Part shown: piece by piece, positions 28,025-35,518 of the stretch
Numbering within the stretch: the stretch's first letter is position 1
Layout of the letters: every line of letters begins with the position of its first letter
Source of the DNA: Microbispora bryophytorum
GTDB taxonomy: Bacteria > Actinomycetota > Actinomycetes > Streptosporangiales > Streptosporangiaceae
NCBI RefSeq assembly: GCF_006874465.1
Contig: NZ_VIRL01000008.1
Coordinates: 186,001 to 250,000 of the forward strand
Length of the DNA stretch: 64,000 nucleotides
Direction: 5' to 3'
The notes under the pieces: model-generated
Database searches by the model: none
What the model was told of the DNA's origin: nothing
The model's input: the letters and a program-made list of their open reading frames with translations, nothing else
Program-made: the position numbers and the translations under genes

Positions 28025-28325
28025 CACGCGCTCCTTTCACCGCGGGCCGGTCGCGTCATGCCGCACCGCCCGCACCCGTCCACGATCCCCGCCGGGGAAG
28101 CACGCCATCGCACGCCCGGCCCGCCTGGCCACTCCTCGAACCCGTCGCCCGCGCGGCGCCGCTGACGAACGCGTGCGCCCATCGCCGGTCCCTCCATCGT
28201 CGCGGTGAGCAGACATGATCACTATTCTGCATCACAGGCCGGACAACAGCCCAATCGTGGCGATTTGTCCGATTCCTGTCGGGTATTTCTTCCCTGATGA
28301 GTCTTGCTGGACGGAGGTGACAGGC
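28025..28325. other. 301-bp divergent intergenic region (cupin/hsp20)
   Basis: It contains the ribosome sites of both flanking genes and the SigB-like promoter of hsp20. I see no CIRCE-type or HAIR-type operator and no gene. Confidence 0.55.
28262..28286 (+). promoter_or_regulatory. Probable SigB-type promoter of hsp20
   Basis: GATTT, then 14 bases, then GGGTAT matches the general stress-sigma consensus (GTTT-N14-GGGTAT). It ends 39 bp upstream of the ATG at 28326, a fitting distance for a stress chaperone. Confidence 0.55.
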
Positions 28326-28763
28326 ATGAGCCTTCCGATGCGACGGGAGTCCAGAGGCCTCGTTCCCGACCTTTTCGACCTGCTGGAGGCGCCGATGGCC
28401 GCGCTCCGGCCGATGGCCGGGCAGCAGATGCGGCTTGAGGACTACGTGAAGGACGGCCGGTACGTGCTGCGCGCCGAACTGCCCGGAATCGACCCGGACA
28501 AGGACGTGGACATCAGCGTGTCGAACGGCGTGCTGACCATCCACGCCGAGCGGCGCCACGAGGAGCGGCAGGCGCACCGCACCGAGTTCCGGTACGGAGC
28601 CTTCACCCGGTCGGTCGTGCTGCCGCCGAACGCGGACGAGAACGACGTGAAGGCGACCTATGCCAAGGGACTCCTCGAAGTGAGCGTGCGCCTCGCCGAG
28701 GAGCAGGAGGAGCGCAGGCGAATCCCGATCGAGAAGCCGGAAGGCGGGCAGCAGCAGAGCTGA
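28326..28763 (+). CDS. Small heat-shock protein, Hsp20 family
   Basis: A 145-residue alpha-crystallin-type chaperone. The N-terminus is short (MSLPMRRESRGLVPDLFDLL). The alpha-crystallin domain runs from about residue 38 (MRLEDYVKDGRYVLRAELPG) to the conserved YAKGLLEVSV near residue 121. The C-terminal tail carries the RRIPIEK element, a variant of the I-x-I anchor used in oligomer assembly. It prevents aggregation of unfolded proteins without ATP. A GGAGG site precedes ATG 28326, and a SigB-like promoter lies upstream. Confidence 0.94.
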   Translation: MSLPMRRESRGLVPDLFDLLEAPMAALRPMAGQQMRLEDYVKDGRYVLRAELPGIDPDKDVDISVSNGVLTIHAERRHEERQAHRTEFRYGAFTRSVVLPPNADENDVKATYAKGLLEVSVRLAEEQEERRRIPIEKPEGGQQQS

Positions 28764-28778
28764 AGCGCCCGCCTGCGC

Positions 28779-28809
28779 CGGGCCCGTCCACACCGCGCGG
28801 ACGGGCCCG
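28779..28809. terminator. Bidirectional hairpin between hsp20 and usp
   Basis: CGGGCCCGTCC and GGACGGGCCCG form perfect 11-bp arms around nine bases, 16 bp after the hsp20 stop and before the stop of the convergent universal stress gene. Confidence 0.75.
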
Positions 28810-28893
28810 AGCTCGCTCGGCACAGAGCCAGCCAGACAGCCACAGGCCCGCCCGCACAGGACAGGGGGCAGACCGCACAGCAACAGGGCCGCT

Positions 28894-29769
28894 TCAGGGC
28901 GCCGACGGGGACCGCACGACGGCGACCGGGCATTCGGCGTGGTGCAGCACTCCCCGGCTGACCGAACCGAGCATCGCCGAGCCCACCGCGCCCCTGCCGT
29001 GGGAGCCGACCACGAGCAGGCCGGACGCGCGTGACGCCTGGACGAGCGCGTCGACCGGATGCCCGTAGGCGATCTCCGAACGCACCGGCACCTCGGGATA
29101 CCGCCGCCACGGGTCCGACAGCTTCTCCCGCGTCACACGCTGACGGGCCTCGCGCACCTCCTCCACGTCGTAGGTGATCTCGGGCGCGAGCGGATGGGCG
29201 GGCAGGTGCCAGGCGTGCACGGCCCGCAGCGCGTCGCCGTGCGCCCTGGCCTGCTCGAATGCGTACGCCAGGGCGGGCTCGCATTCGGACGAGTCGTCCA
29301 CGCCCACGACGATCTCCCCCCTCTCGCCCGTCCAGCCGGGCCGTACGACGACGACCGGGCAGCGGGCCTGCCCCGCGACGTGGGTGCTGACCGATCCGAT
29401 GACGAGGCCGGCGAAACCGCCGAATCCCCTGCTGCCGAGCACGATCTCGACGGCCTCCTTGGCCTTGTCACGCAGGACGCGGGAGGGAATGCCCTCGATG
29501 ATCTCCGTACTGATCTCCACGTCCGGCTGCCGCTCGCGGGCCACCGCCTCCGCGGCGGACAGCGCCCGCTCGGCGTGCGCGGTGAGCGGGTCGCCCCCCG
29601 AGACGGGAAACTTCGGGATGCCGTACGCCCAGTGGTCCACGACGGAGACGAAGCGCAGCCGGCAGCCGCGGCGGGCGGCGTCGTCCGCGGCCCACCGCAC
29701 CGCGGCCGTGGCGGCGGGCGAGCCGTCGGTCCCGACGACGACGGGGCCGGCGACGATGGGGCCGGGCAT
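28894..29769 (-). CDS. Tandem universal stress protein (UspA family)
   Basis: A 291-residue protein with two Usp domains (about 8-148 and 155-288). Each starts with a VVVGTDGS or IVVGVDDS strand. The second ends in VVGSHGRGAVGSAMLGSVSR, a complete ATP-binding pattern; the first has VLGSRGFGGFAGLVIGSVST. Actinomycete tandem Usp proteins are linked to dormancy and hypoxia responses. ATG 29769 follows AAAGGAG. It is convergent with hsp20 and divergent from the DUF1876 gene, giving a small stress-gene cluster. Confidence 0.94.
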   Translation of the reverse strand: MPGPIVAGPVVVGTDGSPAATAAVRWAADDAARRGCRLRFVSVVDHWAYGIPKFPVSGGDPLTAHAERALSAAEAVARERQPDVEISTEIIEGIPSRVLRDKAKEAVEIVLGSRGFGGFAGLVIGSVSTHVAGQARCPVVVVRPGWTGERGEIVVGVDDSSECEPALAYAFEQARAHGDALRAVHAWHLPAHPLAPEITYDVEEVREARQRVTREKLSDPWRRYPEVPVRSEIAYGHPVDALVQASRASGLLVVGSHGRGAVGSAMLGSVSRGVLHHAECPVAVVRSPSAP

Positions 29770-29945
29770 GGGCGCTCCTTTCTCCTCACTCGCCTTTCCG
29801 ATCTGGACCCTCCATCTCCATGTCATCACCGGCGGCCGCGGCCCTCCAGAGTCGTAGGTCCTCGCCCGGGGCCAGAGCGGGAGCCGGGGCCGGTGCCGGG
29901 CCCGCGCGGTCGAGAGGGATGCTGGAGTCCTGGAGGTGGTCCGAC

Positions 29946-30215
29946 ATGGAATCGAAGCGCTGGACCGTCGAGATCTTCGTGAACGAGGACGACAACGACG
30001 ACGTCACCACCGCGACCGCCGTGCTCTATACGCCCGGGGGACAACGCCACGAGAGCGTCGGCCGAGCCCGCCGCAACCCGTCCGACCGGCCCGTGCCCGA
30101 GATCGGCGACGAACTGGCGGCCGGACGGGCCCTCGCCGACCTGGGGGCCAAACTCATCGGGGACGGCGCGGAGGACGTGGCCCAGTTCGCGGGTCCGACC
30201 TACGAGTCGTACTGA
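29946..30215 (+). CDS. DUF1876 family protein
   Basis: An 89-residue protein beginning MESKRWTVEIFVNEDDNDDV, with the later block RNPSDRPVPEIGDELAAGRA. This is the actinobacterial DUF1876 family, which adopts a dsRBD-like alpha/beta fold and often neighbours universal stress proteins, as here. The function is unknown. A GGAGGTGG ribosome site precedes the ATG. Confidence 0.88.
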   Translation: MESKRWTVEIFVNEDDNDDVTTATAVLYTPGGQRHESVGRARRNPSDRPVPEIGDELAAGRALADLGAKLIGDGAEDVAQFAGPTYESY

Positions 30216-30313: not shown

Positions 30314-30439
30314 GGGCCCGACAACCGAGCCGGGCCTGACAAGCAAGCAGAGCCTGACAACCAAGCAGAGCCTGACAACCAAGCCGGGCCTGACAACCAA
30401 GCAGAGCCTGACAACCGGGCCGTGCCTGACAACCGGGCC
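30314..30439. repeat. 18-bp tandem repeat, seven copies
   Basis: Seven head-to-tail copies of a unit like GGGCCTGACAACCAAGCA run directly into the terminator hairpin. Copies differ by a few bases; there are no spacers, so this is not a CRISPR. Confidence 0.93.
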
Positions 30440-30476
30440 GGATCCCCGGGGGCTCGCCCGAGCCCCCGGGGATCCG
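30439..30476. terminator. Long bidirectional hairpin
   Basis: Two perfect 18-bp arms (beginning CGGATCCCCGGGGGCTCG) surround a 2-base loop. It sits between convergent genes and should stop transcription from both sides. Confidence 0.85.
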
Positions 30477-30500: not shown

Positions 30501-30601
30501 CGTACTCGTCCCACCGGTGTCGTCATTCCGTAGGCGCACTCATTCCACGGGCGCGCTCATTCCACGGGCGCGCTCATTCCACCGGTGTCCTCACTCCATG
30601 G
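30501..30601. repeat. 17-bp tandem repeat reaching into a stop codon
   Basis: About six copies of GCGCTCATTCCACGGGC end within the last codons of the subtilisin-like protease, whose stop is at 30591. The period is not a multiple of three. Confidence 0.85.
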
Positions 30602-32822
30602 GGTCGGCCGGGTCATCGCCGAGGAGCCCCGCGGCCCGCATCTCCTCCGCCAGCCAGGCCATGGCGGCCTGCTCTACTCCGCTCGGGCCGGTCGCGGCCA
30701 TCGGCGTGCCGTTCGCGGCCCGGGGGCCCGCCGGGACGTCACCCGCCGCGCCGCCGGGCGTCCGGCCCCCGGAGGCGGGCGTCCGGCCCCTGCCGGGCCC
30801 GTTGGCGTACGGCTGGGCCGCGGCCGTACCGCCTCGCTTGCCCCGTGTCCCCGCGCCGCCGGGCGCTGCGCGCTGGTCGGCCGGCGGGACGCCGCCCCCG
30901 GTCGCCGTGGCGCGCCCGCGCGGGCCGCCGGTGACGAGACCGCCGGGCACCGGCCCGTTGGCCGTCGCGCCCGCGCTGCAGGCCGCCTGCGTGGCCATGC
31001 CGGGGTGCGGCGGCATTCCGGACTGCGCCCCGGGGTCCGCCTGGCCGCCCTGGCCCGTGTGCCCGGAGTCGCCGCCCTGCCCCCAGTCCGCGCATGCGAG
31101 CAGTCCCGCGCCGGTCATCTCGGCGGTGAGCTGCCCGAGCAGCGTGTCGGCCTCGACCGGCTCGGGCGTGATCTGCGCGAGGGCGGGCGCGAGAGCGCGC
31201 AGCGCGTTCGGCATCCCCGCGCCGGTGCGGTGGAGGTCGCCGAGGTTCAGCGGGACGCAACTCGATCTGATGATGTGGAAGAGGTGATCGACCCGCCGCG
31301 CGTCCCGTCCGCTGAAGGGGCCCTGGAAGTCGCCGTGGTGGGCGAGCACCAGGGCCGCGAGGCCGGCGACGTGCGGCGCGGCCATGGATGTGCCGTCCAG
31401 AACGGCGTACCCGTCCGAAGGGACGGCCGACAGGACGGCCACGCCCGGGGCGCACACGTCGATCTCGGGGCCGTGGCAGGTGAAGCGCGGCGAGAAGTAG
31501 CCGTCGCCGGTCATCGGCCCGCGGATCTCGGTCTCGTGGGTGGTGCCGGGCGGGAACGCGTCGGCCTTGCCGACGGCCGCGACGGTCAGCACGCCGGGCA
31601 GGATTCCGGGGAAGCCGACCGGCCCCCCGTCGTTGCCGGCGGCCACCACGCACGCCACCCCCGCCTCGCGCGCCTGCTCGATCTTCGCGGCGACGAGCGA
31701 AGATTGGTGCCTGCTCGCCAGGCTCAGATTGACGACGTCGATCTGCTGCTCGATGCAGTAATCGAGCGCCTGGATGAGATCGCTGAACCGCCCGTCCGGG
31801 AAGATCTTGCAGGCGTGCACCTCGGCCTCGACCGCGAAGCCGACGACGCCGCGGCCGTCGTCGGCGCCCGAGACGACGGCCGCGCAGTGGGAGCCGTGGT
31901 AGGCGGCGTCGATCGACCAGCCGTCCGGCGCGCCGTCGACGAGGTCGACGCCGGCGCGGACGCGGTCACGCAGGTCGGGGTGCCGCACGTCGGCCCCGGA
32001 GTCGATGATGGCGATCTTGACCCCCGCGCCGCGCAGCGTGGGCGGCAGGCGGTCGAGGTTCATCGCCTGCTGGCCCCACCCGAAGACCTGCTTGCCGGGG
32101 AAACCGGCGAAGGTCTCCGACAGGCGCATCGGCTCAAGCAGGTTGTCCCGGGTCGTGGACAGGGCGGGACGGTCGACGTGCACGCTCCAGTAGCCGGAGC
32201 GCGGCCGGACCGTCACCCCGGTGATCGACTCCGGGGTCTCCCCCACCATCGTGACCACTGCGCGGCCGTCGGTCCCGGTGGACGCCTGGGCGGGCCAGCC
32301 GTGCCCGGTCACCAGGACGCTCGCGCCGGGCAGCGGCGTGCCGTCCGCGTCCCTGATCAGGAAGGCGAACGTGCTCTCCACGCCCGGCGGCACCACCGCC
32401 GGTGCGGGCCGCCGCCTGCGTGGCGGCTGCGGCACGTCGCTGTAGGTGAGCAGCCGATCGCGCTCGAAGTAGAGCTGCGGATACTGCCGCCGCAGTGCCT
32501 CGACGTGCTCGACGGTCATCTCCGCCACGACCACAGCGGGAAACCCGGGTGCCTGAGCCCCCGGGTTCCCCGCCGCATCCCGCAGGCGGCGCAGCACGCG
32601 CACCTCGGGGTCGTCCTCCAGCAGCCTGCGCACCGTGTCGCCGTCGAGAGCCGGCACGGCCGCTCCCGGCGTCGCCGGATGCGGCTGGGGCAGTGCGGCC
32701 ACCATGTAGCGCCGCGGCCGGGACTCCACCGGCTGCGGCGCCTGGCGGGACGCCTGCCGCCCCCGCGGGGACGCCGGGCGCGGCTCCTCGCTTCCGTCCT
32801 TGGGCTTGTCGTTATTGGTCAC
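30591..32822 (-). CDS. S8 (subtilisin-like) serine peptidase, no signal peptide
   Basis: A 743-residue peptidase. Residues 1-40 are polar. An inhibitor/propeptide-like region spans about 40-125 (FPAVVVAEMTVEHVEALRRQ). An Ig-like carboxypeptidase-regulatory domain follows at about 145-225 (DGTPLPGASVLVTGHGW). The S8 domain has Asp274 (IAIIDSGAD), His309 (YHGSHCA), Asn in AAGNDGG and Ser479 (GTSMAAPHVAG). A Gly/Pro/Ala-rich tail of about 150 residues ends in a short acidic helix. No signal peptide is present, so it acts inside the cell or is exported unusually. GTG 32822 has GGAG upstream. It is third in a probable operon with the small helical and Gln-rich genes. Confidence 0.9.
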   Translation of the reverse strand: MTNNDKPKDGSEEPRPASPRGRQASRQAPQPVESRPRRYMVAALPQPHPATPGAAVPALDGDTVRRLLEDDPEVRVLRRLRDAAGNPGAQAPGFPAVVVAEMTVEHVEALRRQYPQLYFERDRLLTYSDVPQPPRRRRPAPAVVPPGVESTFAFLIRDADGTPLPGASVLVTGHGWPAQASTGTDGRAVVTMVGETPESITGVTVRPRSGYWSVHVDRPALSTTRDNLLEPMRLSETFAGFPGKQVFGWGQQAMNLDRLPPTLRGAGVKIAIIDSGADVRHPDLRDRVRAGVDLVDGAPDGWSIDAAYHGSHCAAVVSGADDGRGVVGFAVEAEVHACKIFPDGRFSDLIQALDYCIEQQIDVVNLSLASRHQSSLVAAKIEQAREAGVACVVAAGNDGGPVGFPGILPGVLTVAAVGKADAFPPGTTHETEIRGPMTGDGYFSPRFTCHGPEIDVCAPGVAVLSAVPSDGYAVLDGTSMAAPHVAGLAALVLAHHGDFQGPFSGRDARRVDHLFHIIRSSCVPLNLGDLHRTGAGMPNALRALAPALAQITPEPVEADTLLGQLTAEMTGAGLLACADWGQGGDSGHTGQGGQADPGAQSGMPPHPGMATQAACSAGATANGPVPGGLVTGGPRGRATATGGGVPPADQRAAPGGAGTRGKRGGTAAAQPYANGPGRGRTPASGGRTPGGAAGDVPAGPRAANGTPMAATGPSGVEQAAMAWLAEEMRAAGLLGDDPADPME

Positions 32823-32978
32823 AACGTCTCCGACTCTCCCCAACTCAGGCTGGTGTGGCCCGCCGCGCCGCGTACGGCGCGGCGGGCAGTTCAGGCTCTG
32901 TCATCACATTTCGCCGGTCTCGGGACGGCGGGGGCCCGGACCGGCCGCCGACAGGTCCAGGCCCCCGAGGTGATCACG

Positions 32979-33272
32979 TCACAGCAGTGGAACCGTGGGC
33001 CGTCCGGGGGCGACGGCGCCGAGCGCGAACTGGATCTGCGCCAGGCACGTGTCGTACCGCCCGGCCCGGTACAGCTGTACCGCCTGCACCAGCAGCGGGA
33101 TGATGCCCGCGACCTGGGGCGCCTGCGGGAGTGACGCCTGCAGCCAGCCGTACAGCCGCTGGAGCGTCACGGCGCAGTGCGCCTGCAGCGGCGCGACCGG
33201 CGACGGATGCCCCGTCACGACTCCCACGGCCGGGGGCGTCACCGGACTCATCCCCGGACCCATCGACTCCAC
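32979..33272 (-). CDS. Small helical protein of unknown function
   Basis: A 97-residue protein with a Pro/Val-rich first third and a helical remainder (VTLQRLYGWLQASLPQ, then GIIPLLVQAVQLYRAGRYDT and CLAQIQFALGAV) that resembles a TPR-like hairpin. I recognise no family. GTG 33272 has GGAGG six bases upstream, a strong start. It lies 13 bp after the Gln-rich gene and 156 bp before the protease on the same strand, so all three are probably co-transcribed. A scaffold or adaptor role is a guess from its fold. Confidence 0.78.
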   Translation of the reverse strand: MESMGPGMSPVTPPAVGVVTGHPSPVAPLQAHCAVTLQRLYGWLQASLPQAPQVAGIIPLLVQAVQLYRAGRYDTCLAQIQFALGAVAPGRPTVPLL

Positions 33273-33285
33273 GGTGTTCCTCCGA

Positions 33286-33972
33286 TCAGAACGCGGCACC
33301 GGCCGGCACCGGGACCTGCTGAGCGGCCTGCTGGTGCAGCTGGCCGTACGGCTGGCCGTAACCCTGGCCGTAGCCCTGGCCGTAGCCCTGGCCGCCGTAG
33401 ACCTGCGACAGCGGCTGCATGGTCATCGGGACCTGCTGCCCGTACGCCCCCTGGGCGGACAGGGCGCCGAGCTGAAGGGCCTGCTGGCCGGGGTGCTGCG
33501 CGTACGCCTGGGCGGCGTACGGCTGGCCGTAAACCTGCGGGATCTGCTGGGCCTGGGCCTGGATGGCCTGCAGGGCCTGCAGAATCTGGGGCGGAAGCAC
33601 CTGCTGCTGAACCTGCTGCTGGATCTGCTCGCGGACCTGGTGCTGGTAGAGCACACCCTCCAGCATCTGGCGGGCCGCGGGAGCGCCATAACGCACGCTG
33701 TACCGCGCGACCTTGGTCCAGAAGGTCACCGGGCTCACCAGGTGCTCCTGCGGGAGGACCTGCTCCTCCTGCTGGAGCATCGCCAGCGGCGACAGCTGCT
33801 GCTGCATCCCGGGAACCTGCTGATGGAGCTGGTGCATCGCCGGGATCTGCTGGCCGAGCTGCTGCATCGCCGGGATCTGCTGACCGAGCTGCTGCAGGGG
33901 CGAGATCTGGTGCTGAGCGCCGTACCCCAGCGTGGTCGCCATCGACGTGGGGTTCATAGCCGTGAACGTCAT
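33286..33972 (-). CDS. Gln/Tyr/Gly-rich prion-like low-complexity protein
   Basis: A 228-residue protein with strongly biased composition. The N-terminal third repeats QQLGQQIPAM. A short ordered core (PVTFWTKVARYSVRYGAPAA, then RQMLEGVLYQHQ) is followed by Gln-rich helix (REQIQQQVQQQVLPP). The C-terminal part alternates Gly, Tyr and Gln (VYGGQGYGQGYGQGYGQPYG), much like prion-like domains of eukaryotic RNA-binding proteins. There is no signal peptide and no Cys. ATG 33972 has AAGGAG at good spacing. I know no family. Self-assembly or condensate formation is an inference from composition. First gene of the trio with the helical protein and protease. Confidence 0.82.
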   Translation of the reverse strand: MTFTAMNPTSMATTLGYGAQHQISPLQQLGQQIPAMQQLGQQIPAMHQLHQQVPGMQQQLSPLAMLQQEEQVLPQEHLVSPVTFWTKVARYSVRYGAPAARQMLEGVLYQHQVREQIQQQVQQQVLPPQILQALQAIQAQAQQIPQVYGQPYAAQAYAQHPGQQALQLGALSAQGAYGQQVPMTMQPLSQVYGGQGYGQGYGQGYGQPYGQLHQQAAQQVPVPAGAAF

Positions 33973-34156: not shown

Positions 34157-34759
34157 ATGAAGGACGTGGCGGTGATCGAGGACCCGGCGGCGGCGGAGGC
34201 CTCCCTGGATCCCATGCGGGCGCGGTTGCTCGCCGAGCTGACGGAGCCCAACTCGGCGACCATGCTGGCGGCCAAGGTGGGGCTGCCGAGGCAGAAGGTC
34301 AACTACCATCTCAAGACCCTGGAGCGGCACGGCCTCGTGGAGCTGGTCGAGGAGCGCCGCAAGGGCAACGTCAACGAGCGGGTCATGCGGGCGACGGCGG
34401 CGTCGTTCGTGATCTCCCCCGCCGCGCTGGCGTCGGTCGCACCCGATCCGTCACGCGCGCCCGACCGGCTGTCGGCGCGGTGGCTGCTGGCGCTCGCCGC
34501 CCAGCTCGTACGCGACGTGGGCACGCTGATCGTCGGAGCGTCCCAGGCACGCAGGAAGCTCGCGACGTTCGCCATCGACGGCCGGGTGCGCTTCGCCACG
34601 GCCGCCGACCGGGCCGCGTTCGCCGAGGAGTTGTCGGCCGCCGTGGCCGCGCTCGTGAGTAAATACCACGACGATTCGGCCGAAGGCGGGCGCGATCACC
34701 GCCTAGTCGTCGCCGTCCATCCCGCCGTCCCCCGGACGGCCGACACCGAGGAGCGCTGA
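34157..34759 (+). CDS. ArsR-type winged-helix regulator
   Basis: A 200-residue regulator with an N-terminal winged helix (DPMRARLLAELTEPNSATML, then VGLPRQKVNYHLKTLERHGL and VELVEERRKGN) and a C-terminal helical region of about 100 residues. ArsR-type repressors of this length are regularly paired with AHSA1/SRPBCC genes in actinomycetes, and here the next gene starts three bases after the stop. An inverted repeat over its promoter suggests self-repression. There is no cysteine metal site, so it is unlikely to sense metals. Confidence 0.9.
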   Translation: MKDVAVIEDPAAAEASLDPMRARLLAELTEPNSATMLAAKVGLPRQKVNYHLKTLERHGLVELVEERRKGNVNERVMRATAASFVISPAALASVAPDPSRAPDRLSARWLLALAAQLVRDVGTLIVGASQARRKLATFAIDGRVRFATAADRAAFAEELSAAVAALVSKYHDDSAEGGRDHRLVVAVHPAVPRTADTEER

Positions 34760-34762
34760 GGC

Positions 34763-35518
34763 GTGCCCCACGAGTTCGAACTGCGCAAGGAAGTCGAGCT
34801 GGACGCGACCCCCGAGCAGGTATGGGAGGCGATCGCCACCGGCCCGGGGGTGGACTCCTGGTTCATGGGACGCACCGAGATCGAGCCCGCCGAGGGCGGC
34901 CGCGGCCGGTTCACCATGTTCGGCAACAGCGAGGGCACCACCGTGACCGGGTACGAGCCCGGCAAACGGTTCGCGTTCCGCGGCGACGGCAACCCCGACG
35001 GCACGTTCATGGCGATGGAGTACCTCATCGAGGGACGCGACCATGGCAGCACCGTCCTGCGCCTGGTCCAGCACGGCTTCCTCGGCGACGACTGGGAGAC
35101 CGAGTTCGAGGCGATGGGCGTCGGCTGGGACATGTACCTGCACAAGCTCGTGCAGTACCTCACGTACTTCCGCGGGCGCCCGGCCACGGTCGTGTCCGCC
35201 GTACGCCCCCAGGCGGCCGAGAGCGCGCCGGCCTGGGCGGCGATCAAGGCCGCGCTGGGCCTGCCGGACACGGTCCGGCTGGGCGACCCCGTACGGCTCG
35301 CCGTGGACGGGCTGCCGCCCGAGGAAGGGGTGGTCGACTACACCGGATTCCCGGCCTTCCTCGGCCTGCGGACCGCCGACGGGCTCTACCGGTTCATCCA
35401 CTCCGGTCCGAAGCGGGGGAACGTGGTGGTCCTCGGGCACCACGTCTTCGCCGAGGACGCCGACCAGGAGCACGTCGAGGCCGCCTGGCGGTCCTGGCTC
35501 TCCCGGCTGTTCCCCTGA
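34763..35518 (+). CDS. SRPBCC (AHSA1-like) domain protein
   Basis: A 251-residue protein with an Aha1/START-type fold: ELRKEVELDATPEQVWEAIA opens the domain, followed by WFMGRTEIEPAEGG and the hydrophobic-cavity strands. After about residue 145 a second, less regular SRPBCC-like part follows (VVDYTGFPAFLGLRTADGLY). Such proteins bind hydrophobic ligands; the ligand is unknown. The GTG start lies three bases after the ArsR-type stop, so the two are translationally linked and probably self-regulated. Confidence 0.87.
   Translation: MPHEFELRKEVELDATPEQVWEAIATGPGVDSWFMGRTEIEPAEGGRGRFTMFGNSEGTTVTGYEPGKRFAFRGDGNPDGTFMAMEYLIEGRDHGSTVLRLVQHGFLGDDWETEFEAMGVGWDMYLHKLVQYLTYFRGRPATVVSAVRPQAAESAPAWAAIKAALGLPDTVRLGDPVRLAVDGLPPEEGVVDYTGFPAFLGLRTADGLYRFIHSGPKRGNVVVLGHHVFAEDADQEHVEAAWRSWLSRLFP

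Follow-up and report, generated by a model that had tools for sequence, protein, structure and literature searches.

The stretch analysed here, referred to as the window, comprises 64,000 nucleotides of Microbispora bryophytorum (NCBI RefSeq assembly GCF_006874465.1, contig NZ_VIRL01000008.1, positions 186,001 to 250,000 of the forward strand) and carries, at 30591..33972 on its minus strand, three closely spaced genes that belong to a wider and apparently undescribed module found mainly in Actinobacteria and Proteobacteria. The constant parts of the module are a low-complexity repeat protein (gene 1) and, downstream of it, a pro-subtilase (gene 3); the variable parts are a small helical protein (gene 2) and a stand-alone prodomain copy (gene 2b). 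The gene make-up, its conservation, the co-occurrence of the genes and the loss of catalytic residues in some lineages are read directly, and the domain folds are predicted. The reading preferred here, which we place somewhat short of an even chance, is that the module may be a self-assembling cytoplasmic scaffold that captures an inhibitor-gated subtilase or pseudosubtilase recruited through its tail or an adaptor; we infer the assembly, docking, gating, trigger and cleavage that this entails.

The locus in Microbispora

The three genes follow one another in the order 1, 2, 3, with intergenic gaps of 13 and 156 bp, and a Shine-Dalgarno-like AAGGAG, GGAGG or GGAG stands a few bases upstream of each start. 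Gene 1 (33286..33972, minus strand), supported by composition and codon-position bias, encodes a Gln/Tyr/Gly/Ala-rich, nearly charge-free low-complexity protein of 228 residues. Gene 2 (32979..33272, minus strand, GTG start) encodes a 97-residue protein with a predicted three-helix structure, proposed here as an adaptor, and gene 3 (30591..32822, minus strand, GTG start), recognised from Pfam and predicted structure, a pro-subtilase of about 743 residues without an evident signal peptide. On re-reading the sequence, these coordinates and gaps, the amino-acid make-up and the apparent absence of a signal peptide agree with the first-pass annotation, which had proposed the trio as a unit. Since long open reading frames (ORFs) overlap gene 1 on both strands, its frame was checked; it is open in 14 of 14 Microbispora relatives, and substitutions at codon positions 1, 2 and 3 number 1213, 862 and 2028 (13 copies, all pairs), so the Gln-rich frame on which that proposal leaned is conserved within the genus. 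No promoters, terminators or Rfam families were found in the module region. Judged by eye, neither gene 1 nor gene 3 has a hydrophobic N-terminal stretch, and the protease seems to remain inside the cell, together with an inhibitor domain of its own.

The predicted gene 3 product opens with an I9-type prodomain (residues 38-122, 32460..32714, minus strand) of beta-alpha-beta-beta-alpha-beta order, placed by the model and by alignment with pro-subtilisin E (3whi); Pfam I9 has no match in gene 3, and the assignment follows from the predicted fold. Foldseek aligns the gene 3 model over 523 columns with unprocessed pro-subtilisin E 3whi and over about 309 with mature subtilisins (rmsd 6-7 Å), a difference implying that the prodomain is included in the alignment. 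Next comes an Ig-like or carboxypeptidase-regulatory-like beta domain (residues 150-230, 32136..32378, minus strand), indicated by sub-threshold Big_1 and CarboxypepD_reg matches and by the model, and then the S8 catalytic domain (residues 250-551, 31173..32078, minus strand; Pfam match at E 6.8e-37), in which the alignment finds the D275/H310/S480 triad and N398 intact. An S8 peptidase with inhibitor-like and Ig-like parts had been annotated at first pass, and this description stands, the two accessory domains by model. Two further modelled helices lie in the tail on the same strand: one at residues 556-572 (31110..31160), overlapping a first LxxLxxEMxxAGL motif (563-575), and a C-terminal one at residues 716-731 (30633..30680), overlapping a second copy (722-734) and proposed as the docking site of gene 2. 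The model is of high confidence between about residues 150 and 550, of mixed confidence in the prodomain and of very low confidence in the long linker that joins the two tail helices. The type VII secretion system (T7SS) mycosin model TIGR03921 gives gene 3 a score of 101.7 bits, under its cut-off of 278.75.

Co-occurrence across genomes

Gene 2 is present in all 15 Microbispora genomes, window included, and genes 1 and 3 are adjacent in every one, gene 3 being cut by a contig end at two Microbispora loci (L033, L036). Among 200 sampled genomes of the family, 28 have gene 2 and 29 the N-terminal region of the peptidase (E below 1e-20), with 28 in common; the odd genome (G653) has a partial match, and gene 2 is found in no peptidase-free genome. 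Seven more peptidase matches in this sample (E above 1e-7) are short and lie mostly inside the Ig-like region. Of 394 genomes sampled across the class, 12 carry gene 2, all of them among the 13 that carry the peptidase; two more give weak partial peptidase matches. The proposed three-gene unit is supported by 15 of 15 Microbispora genomes and by gene 2 in 28 of the 29 peptidase-bearing genomes of the family sample, but not further afield, where gene 2 is absent at 53 of 86 untruncated, non-duplicate peptidase loci, including all Oxalobacteraceae and both Streptomyces plasmids seen. As the peptidase regularly occurs without gene 2, which the first-pass annotation had named as a refuting outcome, the unit is gene 1 plus peptidase rather than the trio. 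Within the genus of Massilia solisilvae (62 genomes), the peptidase and gene 1 are each found in 30, these being the identical genomes, and neither is found alone; in the Bradyrhizobium genus the peptidase occurs in 16 of 80 genomes, weaker matches counted. Sixteen loci were fetched from these 46 positive genomes (L172 repeats L089), and by inspection gene 1 is present at all 16, at several of them inside over-long ORFs.

Such patchy occurrence in the two genera would suit a conflict or cell-death device, in which infection or damage frees the protease to kill or arrest the cell, either directly or through gene 1 fragments, much as a protease-activated effector would. A dedicated inhibitor-like domain on the protease is consistent with this possibility, as are PADLOC matches of gene 3 to 'subtilase' (E 3.9e-19) and to IetS (E 1.2e-6, from a model without a stated cut-off), although both matches may be explicable by general S8 similarity. 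In the IetAS anti-phage system, the AAA ATPase IetA adjoins IetS. However, the NCBIfam model of IetS gives gene 3 only 9.1 of 900 bits, under its cut-off, the module is present in every Microbispora genome, and active sites are dead in several lineages. In addition, the two Massilia-type loci inspected (L086, L105) have the same housekeeping neighbours, the module sitting between what we take to be earP-like and gltX-like genes; it is therefore patchy in the genus, yet keeps its position at least there. A conflict device is on balance improbable.

Pairing of a charge-poor repeat protein with the peptidase extends beyond these genera. A peptidase-core scan of a species-genome collection gave at least 80 matches, of which the best 80 loci were used, and the last 22 of these (L135-L156, 28-39% identity), 20 of them with an upstream ORF, served as controls. 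The listed loci other than controls include Massilia, Duganella, other Oxalobacteraceae, Bradyrhizobium, Burkholderia lata, Cupriavidus, Geodermatophilus, Actinoplanes, roseobacters, a cyanobacterium and a thermoactinomycete, and almost always a repeat protein of like character and different sequence lies upstream of the peptidase on the same strand. Once duplicates are set aside (L077, L078, L079, L084, L124 and L172, removed also from the motif table below), 80 of 94 family loci pass an automatic charge test, which asks for an upstream ORF containing a 70-residue stretch with at most 6% charged residues; in at least two of the passes (L099, L125) the test picked another ORF, although these loci do have gene 1 or part of it. 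Among the 14 failures, six have gene 1 by eye (L071, L107, L111, L115, L133, L157) and five are truncated where their contig stops (L070, L073, L102, L116, L127). Gln content separates family from controls better than charge does: the top Gln fraction of any upstream ORF does not exceed 0.113 in the controls and is higher in 62 of 84 family rows, which include five duplicates and some ORFs other than gene 1 (for example L114). When 469 ORFs of at least 100 residues from 39 loci and the window are ranked by charge (median 21.9% KRDE), the lowest 25 places all fall to gene 1 or gene 2 and the first outsider stands at 8.0%; the picker missed gene 1 in the window and in some loci, where it took an overlapping frame. 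The peptidase is also found on two Streptomyces plasmids, preceded in each by a Q-rich gene 1. Fourteen phage records also match the peptidase, and the ten listed do so in the catalytic core only.

The repeat protein

Outside the family, the kind of gene 1 protein is conserved (repetitive, usually charge-poor, Q/G-rich) and its sequence is not. The 228 residues of the window copy include 58 Q (25%), 13 Tyr, 22 Gly and 10 charged residues (1 K, 4 R, 5 E, 0 D). Its QQLGQQIPAM repeats (residues 27-56, 33805..33894, minus strand), singled out in the first-pass annotation, occur twice in tandem (from residues 27 and 37) and are followed by a degenerate QLHQQVPGM; copy number varies among strains, and the tandem proves to be particular to this strain among the aligned copies, the others having one unit or a degenerate unit. 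The most conserved part is an amphipathic core, SPVTFWTKVARYSVRYGAPAARQMLEG (about residues 80-107, 33652..33735, minus strand), which is duplicated in locus L039 and by eye resembles the repeats of Bradyrhizobium loci. The GYGQ-rich C-terminal tail (residues 196-212, 33337..33387, minus strand) is as first described, with three GYGQ starting at residue 196. A rule of thumb for prion-like segments is 30 Q/N in 80 residues; the window copy, at a maximum of 27, falls just under it, and 10 of 28 relatives reach 30-41. Eukaryotic prion-like or FET-type low-complexity domains are likewise Q/G/Y-rich and nearly uncharged, and gene 1 is alike in composition, but it is bacterial and has embedded helical units, and no homology is claimed. 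A KD19 window of at least 1.6 is absent from all 28 copies and from the window copy (maximum 1.58), which speaks against a classical transmembrane pore role for gene 1.

In Massilia and many others, gene 1 consists of glycine-zipper units, APQG(F/W)FGNLLGQ...GGxFGNxxLGxxIGGxAGQLGxLLPFSADP, in about 3-6 copies with conserved borders (APQG...LLPFSADP). Bradyrhizobium-type copies have 5-6 FWxVLKKIGQ units, locus L041 has five LLPLLEKLFSLF-type units, the Thermomonospora protein is built of YPLLHQLVSNAIQQAL units, and the Streptomyces protein is plain Q/G/F-rich sequence. At the gene 1 position of an Actinoplanes couchii locus (L130, 3798-4193), a Met/His-rich low-complexity protein is found.

Regular tandem units with conserved borders suit a polyprotein better than a scaffold, and in this respect they count against the preferred reading. 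The main rival is a polyprotein precursor: gene 1 would carry one to several peptide units, the subtilase would excise them at linker borders, and the freed amphipathic or glycine-zipper peptides would act on membranes, whether those of competitors or the cell's own. Besides the repeated units of Massilia, Bradyrhizobium-type loci and L041, the fast turnover of gene 1 units is consistent with such a role, as is a weak Pfam likeness of the L081 copy to glycine-zipper (E 0.0023) and microcin V (E 0.048) families, both below cut-offs. However, many units are uncharged, the window's gene 1 has one core unit only, no KD19 window reaches the threshold given above, and the catalytic residues are gone in several lineages that keep gene 1. 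Nor was a transporter or immunity gene recognised by eye among recurrent neighbours, a weak negative given wrong-frame clusters and no family scan. A polyprotein is regarded as unlikely.

Loss of catalytic residues

Catalytic residues are lost in 7 of 101 rows, representing 6 distinct relatives, with His and/or Ser replaced together with the oxyanion Asn. The replacements occur in Thermomonospora (L069, the same locus as L124), in genome G284 (L075, on a long branch), in two Streptomyces plasmids (L157, L158) and in L076, which groups with both, and in a Caulobacteraceae bin (L127, also on a long branch); L104 and L176, which have gaps at triad positions, were not scored as dead. The tree, which left out L026, L027, L029, L030, L032, L033, L036, duplicates and overly gapped rows, requires four changes of catalytic state, three of them forced by well-supported branches, and, with regain held unlikely, this amounts to three to four catalytic losses. 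Gene 1 is retained at all pseudoprotease loci except L127, whose contig ends upstream. Because catalytic residues have been lost in lineages that keep the module, cleavage cannot, judging from these sequences, be the sole or whole function of gene 3, and the controlled assembly and cleavage suggested at first pass does not carry over as a general role.

Tail motif, gene 2 and gene 2b

At 32 of 33 untruncated loci that have gene 2, the motif LxxLxxxMxxAGL stands near the peptidase end; of 53 that lack gene 2, none shows it (L033, L036, L073, L102, L104, L125, L127 and L176 being left out as truncated). The sole miss, L085, reads FAWLAREMGAAGL and differs at the first letter only. Motif and gene 2 occur together in Actinobacteria and also in a Bradyrhizobium-genus branch with L132 that stands apart from them on the tree. 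Since gene 2 follows this C-terminal helix motif so closely, it may serve as an adaptor that docks on the peptidase tail. Gene 1 ends in His at 36 of 47 loci without gene 2 and at 0 of 33 with it; both this residue and the tail motif were spotted before counting and the loci are related, so that the counts are inflated and Fisher values drawn from them are no independent tests, which again tells against the preferred reading. Charge is below 12% in 52 of 92 peptidase tails (rows with tails of at least 25 residues), and Oxalobacteraceae tails mostly end in Trp.

For gene 2 itself, helices are predicted at residues 26-47, 52-69 and 73-87 after a low-confidence N-terminus, with pLDDT 86-92 over residues 31-80. 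The first-pass annotation had called it TPR-like; this identity is not supported, with no TPR model or other Pfam family matching up to E 5 and three helices predicted. In a comparison with MIT-domain adaptors, VPS4 MIT chains match at a weak E of about 0.1.

In many loci an extra small gene, gene 2b, stands directly before the peptidase and encodes a stand-alone copy of the prodomain; its profile matches the internal prodomain of the peptidase with an hhalign probability of 98.2% (E 6e-14), and by eye most copies end near the inferred prodomain cut site. No gene 2b lies within the window's 156-bp gap before gene 3. In the Noviherbaspirillum aerium locus (L110, 3927-6281), gene 2b and the peptidase form one continuous ORF.

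A model of the module

Taken as a whole, the data allow a tentative model to be drawn. Gene 1 would be a multivalent scaffold, in which short amphipathic or glycine-zipper segments act as stickers within nearly uncharged Q/G/A/Y-rich linkers, and which may form condensates or fibres. Gene 3 would be kept silent by its own I9-type prodomain, of which gene 2b may supply a second, stand-alone copy in many loci. The peptidase tail would bring the protease to the scaffold, possibly with the gene 2 adaptor, where present, gripping the C-terminal LxxLxxxMxxAGL helix; in loci without gene 2, the tail, often low-complexity and aromatic, may partition directly into the scaffold. A stress signal could then free the prodomain, upon which the protease would take the scaffold apart or reshape it; in lineages with a dead active site, the subtilase fold might do no more than bind or cap it. 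The genus-level pairing of gene 1 and peptidase, the joint occurrence of gene 2 and peptidase in the family and class samples, the alignment of the gene 3 model with pro-subtilisin E, the low charge, the lack of a KD19 helix, the homology of gene 2b, the tail motif and the stress-type neighbours described below speak for this model, as do the pseudoproteases and the single-core gene 1 copies of most Microbispora.

Several further observations weigh against it. A protein that is simply a flexible linker would be compatible with the charge depletion and Q-linkers as well, and 3 of 20 control S8 loci (L135, L151, L155) likewise have a charge-poor upstream ORF, so that charge alone is not specific. 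Low-Q gene 1 copies exist in Burkholderia (0.08) and Rhodopseudomonas (0.08), the latter 16% charged. The remaining three charge-test failures (L120, L129, L131), which form one tree branch with a long-branch warning, have the peptidase without a recognisable gene 1. The predicted fold of gene 2 finds no PDB match at E<=0.001 in Foldseek, and a non-classical export route may exist for the module. A broader form of the scaffold model, in which a widespread class of bacterial protein bodies has arisen from charge-poor repeat scaffolds, rapidly re-invented and paired across phyla with a captive subtilase that repeatedly became a pseudoprotease, scaffold binding being ancestral and cutting an optional means of dissolution, is doubtful.

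Genomic neighbourhood

On the side of gene 3, at 28215-30215, lie genes that by resemblance we take to be Hsp20 (plus strand), universal stress protein (USP; minus strand) and a DUF1876-type gene (plus strand). In 29 actinobacterial loci, USP is near the module in 15, Hsp20 in 12 and the DUF1876-type gene in 14, and USP and DUF1876-type genes are also near the module in Planotetraspora. These stress-gene neighbours in the genus, along with the Gln-rich composition of gene 1 and the retained prodomain, would also suit a quality-control subtilase for which gene 1 serves only as substrate buffer or storage protein, with no ordered assembly. This reading leaves the conserved uncharged repeat design and the C-terminal His of gene 1 unexplained, and is very improbable. 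No recurrent fourth partner gene was recognised among the neighbour clusters besides the module genes and genus-specific flanks, a weak negative since wrong-frame ORFs were included.

Other features of these loci were recorded alongside. An ArsR-like regulator and an SRPBCC-like protein (34157-35518) are divergent from the module start across about 185 bp of intergenic DNA, and they occur near the module in 9 and 10, respectively, of the 29 actinobacterial loci. A short stretch of tandemly repeated DNA around gcctgacaaccaagcaga lies at 30320-30440, in the interval that separates the DUF1876-type gene from the gene 3 end. Upstream of gene 1 in some loci stands what is presumably, by resemblance, a SARP/BTAD-like regulator gene (L111, L115, L117, L119 and L133 at about 1800-2770; L121 at 1005-1844), carried by Bradyrhizobium-type and Geodermatophilus loci on two separate branches. 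Beside the outlying family peptidase of a Chromatiales bin (L120, 3290-3727), a small protein resembles a peptide precursor, with an acidic leader-like N-terminus, LGG and a strongly cationic, Cys-containing C-terminus.

Relation to known systems and significance

The enzyme belongs to a known family, and the system as a whole appears to fit no described kind that was found, in keeping with the first-pass annotation, which knew of none of this make-up. For genes 1, 2 and 2b, nothing above cut-off was found in Pfam or NCBIfam (nor, for the window proteins, in PADLOC) in the copies scanned, namely three window proteins and nine relatives (six gene 1, one gene 2, one gene 2b and the L120 small protein). 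An RHH_4 match in L133 passed its cut-off and was dismissed as implausible. No published description of the module was found in the literature searched, with subscription papers and preprints outside that search. QhpE is a subtilisin-like serine protease that acts as a maturase; gene 3 is likewise an S8 enzyme and has a sub-threshold NCBIfam match to it (57.8 of 165 bits), but the window's gene 1 has no NCBIfam match.

Subtilisin- and trypsin-containing conflict systems differ from the module in make-up (PMC7159879). Intracellular subtilisins (ISP) and the Bacillus inhibitor IPI offer a closer likeness, an S8 enzyme without a signal peptide restrained inside the cell, but in the module the protease contains an I9-type prodomain and an Ig-like domain and has a repeat protein as its neighbour; IPI, for its part, is described as having an Ig fold (PMC6220982; PMC3901451). 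A free prodomain copy, as in gene 2b, is known from POIA1 and from the propeptide-like inhibitor of malaria SUB1 (PMC6993865), whereas gene 2b, a putative inhibitor, is bacterial and encoded between gene 1 and the protease. The clostridial germination pseudoproteases CspC and CspA also keep the subtilase fold without catalytic residues (PMC6636752), but gene 3 scores 16.6 of 675 bits against the CspC model, far under its cut-off.

Whatever the mechanism, the present data define three families (genes 1, 2 and 2b) that have no fitting curated model in the scanned copies, and a subtilase subfamily with repeated conversion to pseudoenzymes. If the scaffold model is true, Microbispora, Massilia and Bradyrhizobium would have in common an unrecognised system that provides a prion-like protein with a private protease, inhibitor and adaptor, and that would offer a genetically compact model for the cellular control of protein self-assembly.

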